Origin: Deltaproteobacteria bacterium
GTDB lineage: Bacteria; Myxococcota_A; UBA9042; DTJE01
Length of the DNA stretch: 64,000 nucleotides
Direction: 5' to 3'
Assembly: GCA_029555025.1 (NCBI GenBank)
Contig: JAKPTZ010000038.1
Coordinates: forward strand, 1-64,000
Below the pieces are notes generated by a model. That model was not told the DNA's origin. It made no database searches and was given only the letters and a program-made list of their open reading frames with translations. Shown piece after piece: positions 25,355-32,344 of this stretch; the first letter of the stretch is position 1, and the number at the start of each line of letters is the position of its first letter. Position numbers and translations under genes: made by a program.

Positions 25355-25402
25355 ATGCCGGTCAGGTCAACAGGCCTTTATTCTGCCTGCGGAGGTTGTT
25401 CA

Positions 25403-26047
25403 ATGAAGTTGATGATTTCGATGCAGATGTTCGCGGTTGTGATGTTTGTGGCGGTTTCCGGTTGCCAGGCCGATGATCGTGGCCAGGGCTCCGGCGGTGC
25501 TGCGGTTGCCGGGAAGGCCGCCAAGGCTGCCCCGGCCCCGGTTCCGGTCGCGCCGGTCAAGGTCTCGATCCAGACCAGCGTTTCCACCGGCGGTGGCTTG
25601 ATCGAAATGGAACTCTACCCGGACAAGGCTCCGAAGACGGTCGAGAATTTCGTTAAGCTCGCCCGCCAGGGGTTCTATGACGGCGTCCTGTTTCACAGGG
25701 TTGTTCCCGGTTTCGTCATTCAGGGCGGGGATCCGTTGACGAAGGATCCGGCCATGAAGTCGCGCTGGGGTTCTGGCGGGCCGGACTACCGGTTCGAGGA
25801 CGAACCGGTGAAGGGTGACTATGTGCGCGGCGCCGTGGCCATGGCCAACGCTGGTCCGGACACGAACGGCAGCCAGTTTTTCATCTGCGTCAACGACCTT
25901 ACCGGCCGTCTTCCTAAGCAGTACAACTGGTTCGGCAAGGTCACGCGCGGAATGGATGTCGTCGATGCCATCGTAGCGATGCCCCGTGATGAAAGGGATT
26001 GTCCGAACGAAAACGTCGTGATGCAGAAGGTCACCGTCACCGATTAA
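25403..26047 (+). CDS. Cyclophilin-type peptidyl-prolyl isomerase lipoprotein
   Basis: A 214-residue lipoprotein that should speed proline isomerisation during folding of exported proteins. GGAGG lies 7 bases before the ATG at 25403. The signal peptide ends in lipobox AVSGC near residue 21, followed by an Ala/Pro-rich linker. The cyclophilin domain (about 55-214) has GFYDGVLFHRVVPGFVIQGG with the catalytic Arg, NGSQFFI, and the core W/F positions near NWFGKV. It converges with the nuclease gene, with only 4 bases between the stops. Confidence 0.9.
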   Translation: MKLMISMQMFAVVMFVAVSGCQADDRGQGSGGAAVAGKAAKAAPAPVPVAPVKVSIQTSVSTGGGLIEMELYPDKAPKTVENFVKLARQGFYDGVLFHRVVPGFVIQGGDPLTKDPAMKSRWGSGGPDYRFEDEPVKGDYVRGAVAMANAGPDTNGSQFFICVNDLTGRLPKQYNWFGKVTRGMDVVDAIVAMPRDERDCPNENVVMQKVTVTD

Positions 26048-26051
26048 TTTT

Positions 26052-26543
26052 TCATCGGCTGCGGCAGCTCACTTCGGCGCAGGCCCCCCAGAATCCAAGT
26101 CCGATTGATGCCGCCCGTCGGGCGGCAATGCGGATTTCTTCGGCCCGGCCATCGTCCTCCTGGAGGATCCAGGCGCAGGCGTGACCACGTGAAGCCAGGT
26201 ATTCCGAGGCGCAGCGTCCTTCAACGATCAGATGCGCAAGCAGTCGTCCATAGTCGTCGGTGCATCTCGATGTGAATTCCAGTTCGACGTATTTGTCCAT
26301 CAGAAGCGCATCGGCCGCCGCGCGGGAGCGGGAGCTCCAGCAGCAGCCGGTCTCAGGCGCGTCGATTCCAAGCAGCCTGACGGTCCACGAGTCGTCGATG
26401 ACGACGGTGTCCCCATCCAGCACGGCAGTCACACGGCCGCCCCAGATCCCGCAGTCGTGCGTCCCGGACGCGCAACCGGCGAACAATGTCGCGACAATGC
26501 ATGCGGCACGAGCGACATGGATGCGACAGGCTTCGCTTATCAT
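26052..26543 (-). CDS. Staphylococcal-nuclease-like (thermonuclease) lipoprotein
   Basis: A 163-residue exported nuclease. A signal peptide ends in lipobox LFAGC at residue 24. The SNase domain has VLDGDTVVIDDSW, RLLGIDAPETG and DDYGRLLAHL, so the Ca-binding Asp residues and the catalytic Arg, Glu and Arg expected from the family are all present. Four extra cysteines (CCW, C..DDYG, C..SEY, CAW) suggest disulfides, consistent with life outside the cytoplasm. Its ATG overlaps the stop of the lamin-tail gene (ATGA), making it the third gene of a coupled cassette. It should cut DNA or RNA at the cell surface or in the periplasm. Confidence 0.88.
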   Translation of the reverse strand: MISEACRIHVARAACIVATLFAGCASGTHDCGIWGGRVTAVLDGDTVVIDDSWTVRLLGIDAPETGCCWSSRSRAAADALLMDKYVELEFTSRCTDDYGRLLAHLIVEGRCASEYLASRGHACAWILQEDDGRAEEIRIAARRAASIGLGFWGACAEVSCRSR

Positions 26544-27709
26544 CGCTTTTTCTTCCTGGTCGTGCAGGATGCCGCCAGGCGTCCCGGTGTTCCACCATCG
26601 CAGCCGGTCACGACCCAGGCCGCGGCGTCGTCGTCACGGGATGCGATGGTCGCGACATCCTCGGTGGCCGCGAGATGGACGGATTTTGCCTCAGGAACTT
26701 TGGGATGGATGGCGGTTGCAATCATGTTGCCCGACGTATCCGAGAATTCGAGCATCGCCGAGCCGCCCGTGGCGTTGTAGAAGGTATCGGTTCCCTCGAG
26801 GCTGGCCCCATCGGGACCGCCCAGGATGATTACCTCGCCCAACCTGACCGCGAGGCATGTTTCCGAGACGATCGAGAATGCCCGCGACGCATGGTCACGA
26901 CCAGGGCCGTTGAAATGAACGATGGAGATGCCGTTCAGGTCGAAGTCCGCAAGGGCGATGATCTCCAGCCATTCGTCCTTCAGCGTGTCGCTTCCCTTCG
27001 GGTTGAAGAAGACCTCGGTGACCGCCAGGTCGTCAAGCGTCGGCCTGACGGGCCGGCGGTAGGTTCCGGTCGCCGGATTCCTGCACTCGGCCCCGGCCGG
27101 GACGGGGCAGCCCAGGTTTGTTTCCCCGGGTGTCCCGGAGTTCCCCTCGGTGTCCGGGGCTGCGGTCGATGCACACCACGCGGCGGGCGTTCCGGCCTGC
27201 GGCACAGGTTCCATCTGCAGGGAGAAGCCTTCGGGCGGGGGAGGCACTCCGGTACCCCAAGAAAAGGATGCGACCTCGGTGTCGTTGCACAGGATGGTGA
27301 CCGTTCCGCTTTCATTCGGCAGAGTCAGCGAGTCAAGGGTAGCCGCCGCGGGGTTGCCGCCAGGCGGCGCCTCGCTGAAGAAGACTCGCCCGCCGGCAGG
27401 GATGGATGGTTTCGTCCACCCGGTGACCCCGGATATCCGCGGCCTTGATTCACTGCCGGACACCACGAGCAGCCCGTCCAGTTCGACCGGACCCGCGGAG
27501 ACGTTGGCGACTTCGATGAATTCAAGGCCGGCATCCTCGCCGATCGGGTTGATCAGCAGTTCCGTTATCACCAGTTCACCACCGGTGCATGTGCATCCGG
27601 TGACCACGTCGCGAACCGGCGTCGCGGTCTGGCCGCACCCCGGATGAAGAACCGTCCCGGCGACGGCAATTGCGATGCAGACAAATCGATCGATTCGGCG
27701 TTTCATCAT
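26540..27709 (-). CDS. Lamin-tail-domain (LTD) lipoprotein
   Basis: A 389-residue lipoprotein with lipobox LHPGC at about residue 25. Two lamin-tail-like Ig folds are visible: one at about 40-150, with LVITELLINPIGEDAGLEFI followed by VEVAN-type strands, and one at about 230-340, with VTEVFFNPKGSDTLKDEWLE followed by IIALADFDLNGISIV. A Pro/Cys-rich linker joins them and the C-terminus is basic (TTRKKKR). Bacterial LTDs are common in secreted proteins and are often fused to nucleases; here the nuclease is a separate gene overlapping at the 3' end. The 5' end overlaps the HhH/barrel gene by 4 bases. The domain call is firm; its partner or ligand is inferred. Confidence 0.85.
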   Translation of the reverse strand: MMKRRIDRFVCIAIAVAGTVLHPGCGQTATPVRDVVTGCTCTGGELVITELLINPIGEDAGLEFIEVANVSAGPVELDGLLVVSGSESRPRISGVTGWTKPSIPAGGRVFFSEAPPGGNPAAATLDSLTLPNESGTVTILCNDTEVASFSWGTGVPPPPEGFSLQMEPVPQAGTPAAWCASTAAPDTEGNSGTPGETNLGCPVPAGAECRNPATGTYRRPVRPTLDDLAVTEVFFNPKGSDTLKDEWLEIIALADFDLNGISIVHFNGPGRDHASRAFSIVSETCLAVRLGEVIILGGPDGASLEGTDTFYNATGGSAMLEFSDTSGNMIATAIHPKVPEAKSVHLAATEDVATIASRDDDAAAWVVTGCDGGTPGRLAASCTTRKKKR

Positions 27710-29907
27710 CGAACCCCCTTGTCAGGGCGGGCCTGGCCGGTCCTGCCCGTGAAAAGCAGATCGAACGAGATGGCCGCGGCAATCTCGTTCCTTCCGGGAA
27801 ATCCGGATGCCGATCCCCACGACGGTCTCTGATCGACGTGACGGGTATATCGGCCGATGGCCCTTATCCGTAACAGCCCAGTGCTGAACCTTGCGTCCTG
27901 TGCAATCGTCAGGCCGGTTTCGACCCTGGAGTCGCCCCGGCATATCCCCGGCACCCGGTTTTCGATCTCCCGATCCAGGCAGGACTGTCCAGTAGTCACC
28001 GAGGTATCGGCAGCCATCGACTCGTCGCTGAATCTTGCGAAGGCGGAAAGGAGTGGCCCAGGCGACAGGTTCGCGTCGATCTTCAGGGTCGCCGAAAGAT
28101 CCATGTCGAAGCGGTCGCGCAAGGTTGCTGCATCCCGGAAGGCCTGGCCAACCCTTATCGCCAGCGCCGTTCGCCGGATCCGCTTCGTCTGAAACCAGAC
28201 CGACCAGTCAACCCTGCAGCCGCCCGAAAGGTTGCCTGTAGTCGCCGAATAGTATTGATCCCAGGAAAGGCCGCGCCCCGAAACGGCCAGATCCCGGTCG
28301 CGGAAGGAAATCTCGATGCCCAGCCTTTCATGACGCGATGCGAATACCTGAAGAGCGGTGGCGGCCTCCAGGGCCACCTGCGGTCGTGATTCGGCCAGAT
28401 CAGAAGGGCCGTTCCGTCCGACGTCGATTCTGAATCTGTTGATTGTCCTGGCGGAACTTCGCCAGGTCACGTCGAGTCTTCCGGCAACTTCATCACGCGC
28501 GCGGTTTCCCCTGAATTCCCTGGAGTCGGCCGTGGAGCCGGTCCATGGGTTGTCCCAGTTGCGACCGTAGTATCTTATGGAGGGCTCGAGATCCAGGCCT
28601 GATACCGGGCTGAAGGCTGTTTCAAGCATGCCTGCCGTGGCTCCGTTGTCGGAAACGGCGAATTCGGCCGCAAGGTCGCCATTCAGCGGCAGCCGCGCAT
28701 GTCCCGCGACTCCGACCGCGCCGAACCGTCGACGATCCTCCGGCCATGGCGATGACACCGACTGCCACATTCCGGGCGCGGACGGACGAAAGCGCAGCCC
28801 GGTTCCCCAGCCGATGGCCTCCAGTTTCCAGCGCTCCTGTCCGAACCCAATCGCCCCGCCGGCGGTTGCCTCGCGGAGCGATCGGGTGAGCGAAACCCCC
28901 GACGTGGATTCGCCTGCCGCCGCGGGGTCGCTCCAGACCGCCATCGGAGCCTTGTCGCCATCGGCGCATTCTGACGTTAAGTCGGGGCAACGGTTCCAGG
29001 TAACGTCGGACAAAGTCGGATCCGTCAAACGGTACGACGCGAAGACCGTTCCGGCGACGATCCAGCCATCCCGGCCGACCGCCTTCCGGAAGGACGCGGC
29101 AGCACCGGTGAAGTGGCGCATGGGGTAGATCGAACCGGACGCCGCCGACATCACTGCGGACAGGCAGGGCTTGTGGCCGCTGGGGCGCTTCAGCCCGGTG
29201 ATGTCCATCGTAAGGCCGTTCCCGAATCCGACCTTGAAAGTGCCGGCCGTTACGGAATACCAGCCGCCGTCGTAATGAAGCCCGAACGCCGGCGCGGACG
29301 CGGCGACTCCCGGCCCGGTCGCCACCAGTTGTCCCTTTTGCGCGTGAATCGACGATGCCCCCGGGGTTGTGCGCACGCCGGCCCAGACGATCCACCGACC
29401 GTTTGCGCCGGCGGCAATTCCGCCCGTGAAATCGGGCATCTTCATGATATTCGCGCCTCGCTTCAGGGTGTTTGAATGCCAGGCGCCAGCGGATGAAATC
29501 CTTATCCAGTATTCGGTTTTGGAATCGATCCGGCACCGACCGAAATCGTGAAGCGCCTCCACCGCCGTCGGAGAGAGCCCTTCCGTGGACGCCGCTTCTT
29601 CTATCGAGGCAAAGGAGCCGGCCTTACCCCGTCGTTCGAGCAGGATTGCGGCGTCCGATCGCGAGATTCCCGGCACTTCGGCCAGTTCACCGATATCAGC
29701 CGCGTTTATATCGATTCCGTTCGATTCAAGCTCCGCGATCCTTTCGTCGCTGGAATCCGCGGCCGGCGCGTCAACCGGATCCGCCGCTTCGTCGAAGGTG
29801 GACTGGCAGGTGGCGGACAGGGGCGCCAGGGTTCCCAGGGCCAGTGCCATGGCAGTTGCCACAGACCCGCCCAGGCTTGCGATCCTGCTTGATGAGGCGC
29901 TGCGCAT
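27706..29907 (-). CDS. ComEA-like helix-hairpin-helix protein with predicted outer-membrane beta-barrel
   Basis: A 733-residue exported protein. After the signal peptide (cleavage near residue 33) an acidic linker leads to a ComEA-type HhH domain (about 65-130: DINAADIGELAEVPGISRSD, then GSFASIEEAASTEGLSPTAV). The remaining 600 residues alternate polar and hydrophobic residues with many Gly, Trp, Tyr and Arg turns, as in outer-membrane barrels. They include repeated short strands such as WKLEAIGWGTGLRFRP and AEFAVSDNGATAGMLETAF. ComEA-type HhH domains bind DNA without sequence preference. Similar HhH-barrel proteins occur in Bacteroidota. It is the first gene of the overlapping HhH-LTD-nuclease cassette. 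The barrel assignment is by pattern only. Confidence 0.75.
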   Translation of the reverse strand: MRSASSSRIASLGGSVATAMALALGTLAPLSATCQSTFDEAADPVDAPAADSSDERIAELESNGIDINAADIGELAEVPGISRSDAAILLERRGKAGSFASIEEAASTEGLSPTAVEALHDFGRCRIDSKTEYWIRISSAGAWHSNTLKRGANIMKMPDFTGGIAAGANGRWIVWAGVRTTPGASSIHAQKGQLVATGPGVAASAPAFGLHYDGGWYSVTAGTFKVGFGNGLTMDITGLKRPSGHKPCLSAVMSAASGSIYPMRHFTGAAASFRKAVGRDGWIVAGTVFASYRLTDPTLSDVTWNRCPDLTSECADGDKAPMAVWSDPAAAGESTSGVSLTRSLREATAGGAIGFGQERWKLEAIGWGTGLRFRPSAPGMWQSVSSPWPEDRRRFGAVGVAGHARLPLNGDLAAEFAVSDNGATAGMLETAFSPVSGLDLEPSIRYYGRNWDNPWTGSTADSREFRGNRARDEVAGRLDVTWRSSARTINRFRIDVGRNGPSDLAESRPQVALEAATALQVFASRHERLGIEISFRDRDLAVSGRGLSWDQYYSATTGNLSGGCRVDWSVWFQTKRIRRTALAIRVGQAFRDAATLRDRFDMDLSATLKIDANLSPGPLLSAFARFSDESMAADTSVTTGQSCLDREIENRVPGICRGDSRVETGLTIAQDARFSTGLLRIRAIGRYTRHVDQRPSWGSASGFPGRNEIAAAISFDLLFTGRTGQARPDKGVR

Positions 29908-30061
29908 GGCCGTATATCGGCCCCGGGACGATGTTCTTTCACGGGATTTGCAATGTCATCGAATCTGTTGACGAAAGACAGTGACTGACGCACCATAGAC
30001 CGGTTTGTCCGCGACCCCGTTTCGTGGCCCGGATTCCATTCGAATTGCAGAGGTGCCCCTA

Positions 30062-32344
30062 ATGTCAAGAACTATCGGCGTCATGAGGTCTTCCGCGGTC
30101 CATCGACTGTTTCTGGCGTTCGTCGCCTTGTCTGTCGCGGGTTGCGAGATGGTTGGGGAGGGCGGGGATCCGTCGGGGCTGTCAAGTCCGATCATCAACG
30201 GCAAGGCCGAGACCGGGTGGCCGGCTGTCGGCGCGCTTGTCATGTCCTATCCGTTTTACGGTTTCACCGGTTCGTTCTGTTCGGGGACCCTCATCGATCG
30301 TCGCTGGGTGCTGACCGCCGCCCACTGCGTGTCGCCGTCCGACGAGTTCCCGGTTCAGCCCGGCATCGTGTCCTTCATGATTACAAGCGATGCTCGTCCG
30401 ACATCCTCCGGGGCAAGGCCGGCCGGCGTGCTTGTCCAGGCCGATTACTTTGTCACCCATGCTTCCTACAACGGCCAGAACACCGACTACGACATCGCGC
30501 TGGTGCACCTGTCCCGTGACGTCACCGAGGCCGATCCGATTCCGCACAACACGGCCTCGCTTTCGACGTCCCTTGAAGGCAAGTCGTTTTTCTTCGTCGG
30601 GTTTGGCGTTGACAACGGGGCTGCCGAAACCGGCGGCGGCTTGAAGCGTTCGGTCAACATCCCGATTGCCGACATCAACGCCAGACATTTCATTTCGGAT
30701 GCCTACAACACTGCGGTCTGCTTCGGTGATTCCGGCGGTCCGGCCCTTTATCCGATGGGTGGCGTGCAGAAGGTGGTTGGCGTCAATTCCGCCGTTTCCG
30801 GTTACGGTTCAGATCCCTGCATCGGAGTCGGTTACCATGTGCGCGTCGATGCCCATTCCACGTGGATCGAGACGGTCATGAATACGTATCCGCCGGACTG
30901 CAGGAACAAACCGTCCGCGTGCCTTTGCGCGGCCGCCTGCAAGAGCGACGGTACCTGTGACGAGTCCGCCTGTGAAACCAGATCCTGCGGCGAGGCCGTT
31001 GACTGCATTTTCGACTGTTACGGTTCCGGCGACGTCGAGTCTTGCGGCATCGGCTGCTTTGTCTCGGGTCCGGAAGCGGCCCGCGAAGGCCTGGACAACC
31101 TGATGGGGTGTTATGTCACCTACTGCTATCCGAAGTCCATACCGTGGGACAACTGCGTCGCCGACACGTGCAATGGCAAATATAACGCTTGTTACCTCGC
31201 CGACCGCGAAAAGCTTGACTGCCCCGGCGTGTACGACTGCTGGGGCGATTGCCTGACCCCGGTCTGCTCAAAATCGTGCGAATGGCTGGCGATGGAAGGC
31301 GTGTCGGAGCTATGGGCCCCGCTTGCATCCTGCATCGCCTCGAATTGCGCGGACGTTTATGGATCCGCCCTGGGTTCATGCATTTCGAAGAATTGCCCCT
31401 CGCAGACCAACGGCTGCCTGGATCCGGACGAATGCGATCCCAGGGGCGGCGACTGTCCCGACGGAACGAAATGCCGCCAGTTCATGGAGCATTCGACAAC
31501 CTGCGTCGAAAGTCAGGGGCTCGGACTTGGGGAGAAGTGCAAGATCGAAAGCGGCAAGCCGGATCCGTGTGACGATGGACTCGCCTGCATGTCGGGCGAG
31601 GGTGGCCGCCTCTGCCGCAAGGTCTGTTCAAAGGCCGAGGGGTGCGCGGAAGAAGGGGAAGTCTGCAAGGGCCTTCCGCTTCCAAGTCTTCCCGAATGGG
31701 GCTGGTGCGGATGCGTTGATCTTGATGAAGACACCGTCTGCGTGGATGACGACTGCAACGATACCGACTCCTCGGTTTTCCCCGGGGCGCGGGAGTGGTG
31801 CGACGGTCTTGACAACAACTGCGACGGCACGACCGACGAAGGGTGTTCGACATCGTGTCCGGACGCCGATTCCGACGGATCGTGCGACGACGCCGATTGC
31901 GACGACGAAAACGATTCCGTGCGTCCGGGGGCGGTCGAGGTATGCGGAGACAAACTGGACAACGACTGCAACGGCGCGACCGATGACGGATGCTCCGGGT
32001 GCATCGATCTGGACAAGGACGGATACTGTTCCGACCGCGACTGCAACGACAGGGACTACAGGATCAGTCCCAAGGCGCAGGAAGTCTGCGACGGCATCGA
32101 CAACAACTGCGACGGCGCGACCGATGAAGGGTGCGCGATCGGCGGCGAAGACGTGATCGAGCAGGACACGACCGCCGGCGACGATGATCAGGGCGGGATC
32201 ACGACTCTCGACGGCGGCTGTTCGGCCGGTTCCGGCGGCAGCGGCACCTCGCACCTGCTGATCCTTGCCGCAATCGTCATGCTGGCGGCGTGCCGTCGTG
32301 TCTTCAAGTTCCGCGCGCGTCGTTCCGGGGGCCTTCTTGGGTAA
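30062..32344 (+). CDS. Trypsin-like serine protease lipoprotein with MopE repeats and MYXO-CTERM-like tail
   Basis: A 760-residue surface protease. The ATG at 30062 has GAGG 8 bases upstream, and the lipobox is LSVAGC near residue 28. The S1 trypsin domain (about 43-285) begins SPIINGKAETGWPAVGALV and has the full triad: LTAAHC, DYDIALVHL and CFGDSGGPAL. A Cys-rich region follows (about 290-540). Three copies of a 43-residue metal-binding motif (DCND.DSSVFPGA..WCDGLDNNCDGTTDEGC type) lie at about 555-700. The end reads GGCSAGSGGSG, a hydrophobic helix, then an Arg-rich tail, the layout of MYXO-CTERM sorting signals. It may therefore be anchored at both ends, or released after processing. Confidence 0.88.
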   Translation: MSRTIGVMRSSAVHRLFLAFVALSVAGCEMVGEGGDPSGLSSPIINGKAETGWPAVGALVMSYPFYGFTGSFCSGTLIDRRWVLTAAHCVSPSDEFPVQPGIVSFMITSDARPTSSGARPAGVLVQADYFVTHASYNGQNTDYDIALVHLSRDVTEADPIPHNTASLSTSLEGKSFFFVGFGVDNGAAETGGGLKRSVNIPIADINARHFISDAYNTAVCFGDSGGPALYPMGGVQKVVGVNSAVSGYGSDPCIGVGYHVRVDAHSTWIETVMNTYPPDCRNKPSACLCAAACKSDGTCDESACETRSCGEAVDCIFDCYGSGDVESCGIGCFVSGPEAAREGLDNLMGCYVTYCYPKSIPWDNCVADTCNGKYNACYLADREKLDCPGVYDCWGDCLTPVCSKSCEWLAMEGVSELWAPLASCIASNCADVYGSALGSCISKNCPSQTNGCLDPDECDPRGGDCPDGTKCRQFMEHSTTCVESQGLGLGEKCKIESGKPDPCDDGLACMSGEGGRLCRKVCSKAEGCAEEGEVCKGLPLPSLPEWGWCGCVDLDEDTVCVDDDCNDTDSSVFPGAREWCDGLDNNCDGTTDEGCSTSCPDADSDGSCDDADCDDENDSVRPGAVEVCGDKLDNDCNGATDDGCSGCIDLDKDGYCSDRDCNDRDYRISPKAQEVCDGIDNNCDGATDEGCAIGGEDVIEQDTTAGDDDQGGITTLDGGCSAGSGGSGTSHLLILAAIVMLAACRRVFKFRARRSGGLLG

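Follow-up and report, generated by a model that had tools for sequence, protein, structure and literature searches.

A conserved myxobacterial barrel, lamin tail and nuclease gene set points to a possible machine for the digestion of external DNA

What could unite an outer-membrane barrel, a lipoprotein with lamin tail domains (LTDs) and a nuclease in one run of overlapping genes? The question is raised by a stretch of 64,000 nucleotides from a Deltaproteobacteria bacterium (GTDB phylum Myxococcota_A; assembly GCA_029555025.1, contig JAKPTZ010000038.1, positions 1 to 64,000 of the forward strand), referred to here as the window. It holds three adjoining open reading frames (ORFs) on the minus strand (29907-27706, 27709-26540 and 26543-26052) with 4-bp overlaps. 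Gene 1 (27706..29907) encodes an exported protein of 733 amino acids that combines a helix-hairpin-helix (HhH) domain with an outer-membrane β-barrel, gene 2 (26540..27709) a lipoprotein of 389 amino acids with two LTDs, and gene 3 (26052..26543) a staphylococcal-nuclease (SNase) lipoprotein of 163 amino acids. Both junctions, where the stop of gene 1 meets the start of gene 2 (27706..27709) and the stop of gene 2 the start of gene 3 (26540..26543), read ATGA on the minus strand, and putative ribosome-binding sites lie 5' of genes 2 and 3. An initial annotation made from the sequence alone had described this overlapping arrangement, with predicted export signals on all three proteins, and both features were found again. 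Taken together, the conserved myxobacterial set of barrel, LTD and nuclease genes points to an undescribed machine that digests external DNA and perhaps takes DNA up.

Conservation of the cassette and exchange of its nuclease

Conservation of the cassette was followed in 53 relatives, across the species of GTDB and in 379 Myxococcota genomes; the first scan alignment was too divergent for patterns, and a closer alignment was used for the GTDB scan. Among the 53 relatives, LTD and SNase homologues adjoin the barrel gene in nearly all genomes of the same family. The GTDB scan recovered 57 barrel loci, labelled Myxococcota, Deltaproteobacteria and in a few cases otherwise, including those of Plesiocystis pacifica SIR-1 and two Enhygromyxa salina strains. 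Both an LTD and an SNase gene lie beside the barrel at 43 of these 57 loci, and at 26 of the 28 whose flanks reach 4.5 kb or more in both directions. Full-length barrels occur in several dozen of the 379 Myxococcota genomes, where the closest SNase matches are mostly found at barrel loci. Most loci are on contigs of metagenome-assembled genomes, in which an absence close to a contig end is uninformative. The pooled set comprises 84 non-redundant Myxococcota barrel loci, 48 of them flanked by 3.5 kb or more in either direction. An LTD gene lies beside 46 of these 48 well-flanked barrels, and, on the same strand, both an LTD gene and a nuclease-type gene, which may be an SNase, a phospholipase D-type (PLD) or a metallo-β-lactamase (MBL) gene, beside 44. 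The initial annotation had made its proposal depend on a conserved triplet and on the nuclease not being usually absent; the gene set is conserved, in varying order, and one of the three enzymes accompanies the LTD gene at those 44 loci, so that for the most part the proposal withstands these conditions.

The cassette occurs in at least three gene orders. One common layout runs from LTD through long SNase, multi-LTD and short SNase to barrel; the relatives of the window carry barrel, LTD and SNase. That the order varies while the gene set persists is expected of a functional rather than a positional linkage. Furthermore, clustering of the flanking genes brought up no additional gene that keeps company with the barrel throughout its family, which indicates that the module is self-contained.

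The nuclease slot is filled by three unrelated folds, namely SNase, a PLD protein resembling NucT, and a stand-alone MBL of the ComEC type. Twenty divergent loci from the survey of 379 genomes were picked mainly among barrels without a nearby match to the SNase-I family, so that any bias runs against nuclease linkage and not for it; almost all of them have an LTD gene, and the type of enzyme differs. At several of these loci the enzyme is a PLD protein related to Helicobacter pylori NucT and in most cases bearing a lipobox. In one clade of family f16 the partner gives a match to the MBL domain at the C-terminus of ComEC (TIGR00361, E 1.7e-17; ComEC chains in the PDB). Among these ComEC-type MBL partners, the clearly called ones have a signal peptide. 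The motif HxK(x)4D is intact in 9/9 PLD proteins and HxHxDH in 6/6 MBL proteins. The enzymes also combine: SNase occurs with a large PLD protein at L046 and L049, PLD and MBL occur together at L128, and L043 reads PLD, barrel and an LTD-like gene. At least three changes of partner type are required on the tree of the barrels. As action on nucleic acid is the only obvious property common to SNase, the PLD nuclease and the ComEC-type MBL, this is the strongest functional argument available, and the exchange of enzymes gives the best support for an action of the module on nucleic acid.

Several details of individual loci were recorded alongside. Stand-alone ComEC-type MBL genes lie beside HhH-barrel (and LTD) genes at L136:9086-10459, L137, L138, L139 and L140. 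Large PLD genes stand directly 3' of the barrel at L046:1-2625 (= L108:6400-9024) and L049:4015-7149; the L046 protein contains two PLD repeats and a stretch resembling an LTD, and its gene shares 4 bp with the stop of the barrel gene. At L067:1078-1581, L087:7331-7879 and L117:7346-7906, the barrel and the short SNase are separated by a third SNase lipoprotein gene, which is divergent and lies on the opposite strand. In family f9, two barrels are followed by an exported protein containing DCHGPLYY (L041:8253-9374 and L048:1072-2364). Within the single bacterial family f1, two barrel lineages stand far apart and differ in gene order (L044, L045, L047 and L038 versus L031-L037 and L050), which suggests horizontal transfer or an old duplication. 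A tblastn search of plasmids gave a ComEA match only.

The barrel, its HhH domain and the two lipoproteins

The barrel region of gene 1 comprises residues 131-721 (27745..29517, minus strand), with about 24 long strands in an MtrB-like fold according to an AlphaFold2 model and Foldseek. The model, built on 51 sequences, is confident (pTM 0.80, mean pLDDT 76.7) and places a helical N-terminal domain at residues 36-122. The first match of the model in the PDB is MtrB (6r2q_B, E 1.7e-10), followed by TonB-dependent receptors and ushers. With a signal peptide, many predicted strands and outer-membrane barrels as its top structural matches, the protein is probably an outer-membrane β-barrel, as the initial annotation had proposed. 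The TM-scores of the PDB matches are modest (~0.4), so that the likeness to MtrB reflects a common architecture and is no proof of family membership. In Pfam, the window barrel has no match to MtrB_PioB, and 1 of 17 relatives matches it weakly (E 0.0058).

The HhH domain of gene 1 belongs to the ComEA-type family HHH_3 (residues 62-122, 29542..29724, minus strand; Pfam E 1.1e-9), and the NCBIfam ComEA model matches it weakly (24.5 bits against a cut-off of 152.35). Canonical HhH domains contact the phosphates of DNA through the GhG hairpin. In gene 1 these hairpins are degenerate, reading PGIS and EGLS, and GhG is missing from both hairpins in 82/82 barrel HhH domains, whereas ComEA-type HhH controls from the same phylum keep it in both (20/20). 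Moreover, the domain has been deleted in frame from the barrel homologue L037:2265-4280 (= L062), which is followed at the contig end by an LTD gene and the start of an SNase-like ORF. The net charge of barrel HhH domains does not differ significantly from that of ComEA-type HhH domains (p = 0.09); charge thus does not discriminate, and the argument uses the loss of GhG alone. This loss in every barrel and the deletion in one relative mean that DNA binding by the HhH domain, which had been assumed at first, is not supported, and a role in structure or gating is the likelier one. Of the features of a ComEA-type DNA receptor, gene 1 has the HHH_3 fold and lacks both the GhG hairpins and the small periplasmic or membrane-anchored form.

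In gene 2, the first LTD spans residues 43-152 (27254..27583, minus strand) and passes the Pfam cut-off narrowly (E 2.7e-8, 34.6 bits against 34.3). The second (residues 228-335, 26705..27028, minus strand) is missed by Pfam and seen in the structure model only, which in this form bears out the lipoprotein with two LTDs of the initial annotation. The top PDB matches of the LTD model are human lamin Ig domains, with TM-scores, normalised by target length, that reach 0.74. Members of the LTD family keep the lipobox cysteine almost without exception (90% of the alignment or more), although the lipobox of the window protein (LHPGC) is atypical.

The SNase domain of gene 3 occupies residues 54-152 (26088..26384, minus strand; PF00565, E 2e-9, 38.3 bits, cut-off 21), and NCBIfam relates the protein to thermonucleases. 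Its residues D45, R56, D61, E64 and R100 align to D21, R35, D40, E43 and R87 of Staphylococcus aureus nuclease, in agreement with the intact catalytic residues noted before; these residues are retained in 76-78 of 78 family copies, and the lipobox cysteine is invariant across the SNase-I alignment. By its residues, the gene 3 nuclease looks active.

Two further genes border the cassette in the window. A cyclophilin-type peptidyl-prolyl isomerase with an export signal (25355-26047, plus strand) is convergent with it and ends 4 bases from the SNase stop. On the other side, a trypsin-like protease with three MopE copper-binding motifs (30005-32344, plus strand) adjoins the cassette and is divergently transcribed.

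Proposed use of extracellular nucleic acid and its alternatives

That the cassette enzymes cut nucleic acid is well supported by their families and motifs. The broader reading, to which about an even chance is given, is an outer-membrane complex that uses extracellular nucleic acid by degrading it at the surface and scavenging the fragments through the barrel. The large barrel would sit in the outer membrane, with the HhH domain at its periplasmic mouth as a scaffold or gate and not as a DNA clamp. A lipoprotein with two to about five LTDs, on or near the barrel, would hold the substrate, the enzyme or both, and a lipid-anchored or secreted nuclease would cut the nucleic acid. The products would then be scavenged, most simply by entry through the barrel. 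We infer the surface location and orientation of the parts, their physical complex, the transport of fragments and a nutritional role. The logic would be that of a Sus-type system, with pore, surface lipoprotein and surface hydrolase, and with other protein families in each slot. Three observations weigh against scavenging through the barrel: the conserved neighbours include no nucleoside transporter, nucleotidase or phosphate gene; the lack of a TonB plug by Pfam leaves no apparent energy source for active import; and the barrels of family f9 have other neighbours instead of LTD or SNase genes, so that not every barrel is part of a cassette.

The same lack of a linked uptake gene would suit a display of nucleases at the surface, for turnover of the biofilm matrix, predation or defence against incoming DNA, with a barrel that anchors or exports the lipoproteins and imports nothing. 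MtrB, the closest solved fold, sheathes a protein partner; many loci carry two or three nucleases, and ExeM/Xds influence biofilms. However, a dedicated large barrel that is retained across three enzyme changes seems excessive for an anchor, and lipoproteins can usually be shown at the surface without a cognate barrel. Display is considered rather unlikely.

Natural transformation, in which the barrel would carry DNA in, the nuclease would nick the DNA or degrade one strand and ComEC would act at the inner membrane, is judged improbable. It draws on the ComEA-type fold of the HhH domain, on the ComEC-type MBL partner of one clade, and on NucT, which has been implicated in purine salvage and natural transformation of H. 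pylori (PMC5714352). Furthermore, pilus-independent competence in the Bacteroidota requires an HhH protein and a barrel: in Riemerella anatipestifer, an HhH protein, an outer-membrane barrel and a surface protein (RA0C_RS02645, RS04915 and RS04920) are required for DNA uptake without pili (PMC8459023). However, the universal loss of GhG from the barrels, kept in the controls, and the missing domain of L037 speak against such a route, and potent nucleases would destroy the incoming transforming DNA. ComEC is present in 48 of the 53 relatives whether or not the cassette is, and being nearly universal it makes any correlation with the cassette uninformative. The window genome also encodes a separate ComEA-type HhH protein and two secretins away from the cassette; the idea that the barrel HhH substitutes for a missing ComEA was dropped for this reason. 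The comparison of 53 genomes thus gives no positive support for a link to natural transformation. Mere coincidence deserves almost no credence: LTD and SNase genes are indeed common in these genomes, but the Myxococcota survey refutes a chance neighbourhood, since the partners recur at 44 of 48 well-flanked barrels, the genes stand in three or more different orders, and those of the window overlap by 4 bp.

Relation to known systems and significance

SusCD-type systems, including BtuBG, likewise place a barrel gene beside a surface lipoprotein, with a surface hydrolase in polysaccharide loci. The cassette has an HhH domain instead of a plug, an LTD protein instead of SusD and a nuclease instead of a glycosidase; at E values of up to 1, Pfam finds neither a TonB plug nor a SusD-family domain in the products of the first two genes. 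LTDs are known from secreted nucleases such as ExeM/Xds of Shewanella and Vibrio, which play a part in biofilms and in the acquisition of nutrients (PMC6085458), and there too the LTD is tied to an envelope nuclease. However, ExeM/Xds join LTD, OB and EEP nuclease domains in one polypeptide without a barrel, while the cassette has one lipoprotein for the LTDs and another for the nuclease, which is of the SNase, PLD or MBL type; Pfam detects no EEP domain in the three window proteins. The periplasmic DNA receptor ComEA shares the HHH_3 fold with gene 1, which differs in its fusion to an outer-membrane barrel and in the loss of both GhG hairpins. The Riemerella set resembles the cassette by description only, as its HhH protein is separate and predicted to be periplasmic, and no SNase or LTD is reported. 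The MtrB/PioB porin shares the large barrel fold, with no common function indicated. NucT, which is membrane-associated, belongs to the same PLD subfamily as the PLD partners and has no HhH-barrel or LTD neighbour known from the literature consulted for this comparison.

No published description of the cassette was found in the collection of open-access papers searched, within which the initial view that the trio matches no described system holds. Searches there for an HhH protein with an outer-membrane barrel led to the Riemerella paper only, and those for LTD with HhH and a nuclease, or for LTD in Myxococcus, to none.

The cassette gives concrete genes, also in cultured myxobacteria, for the question of how DNA or its fragments cross the outer membrane outside pilus systems. 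It assigns a context to bacterial LTDs and shows that the ComEC-type MBL domain is also encoded as a stand-alone protein. A possible, still doubtful, extension is that Myxococcota possess an outer-membrane port for nucleic acid, in which a very large barrel, with a remodelled HhH domain as its gate, LTD lipoproteins to load it and interchangeable nucleases to serve it, would pass oligonucleotides or longer DNA to the periplasm. If this is true, the port would be an uptake route that requires neither type IV pili nor TonB.

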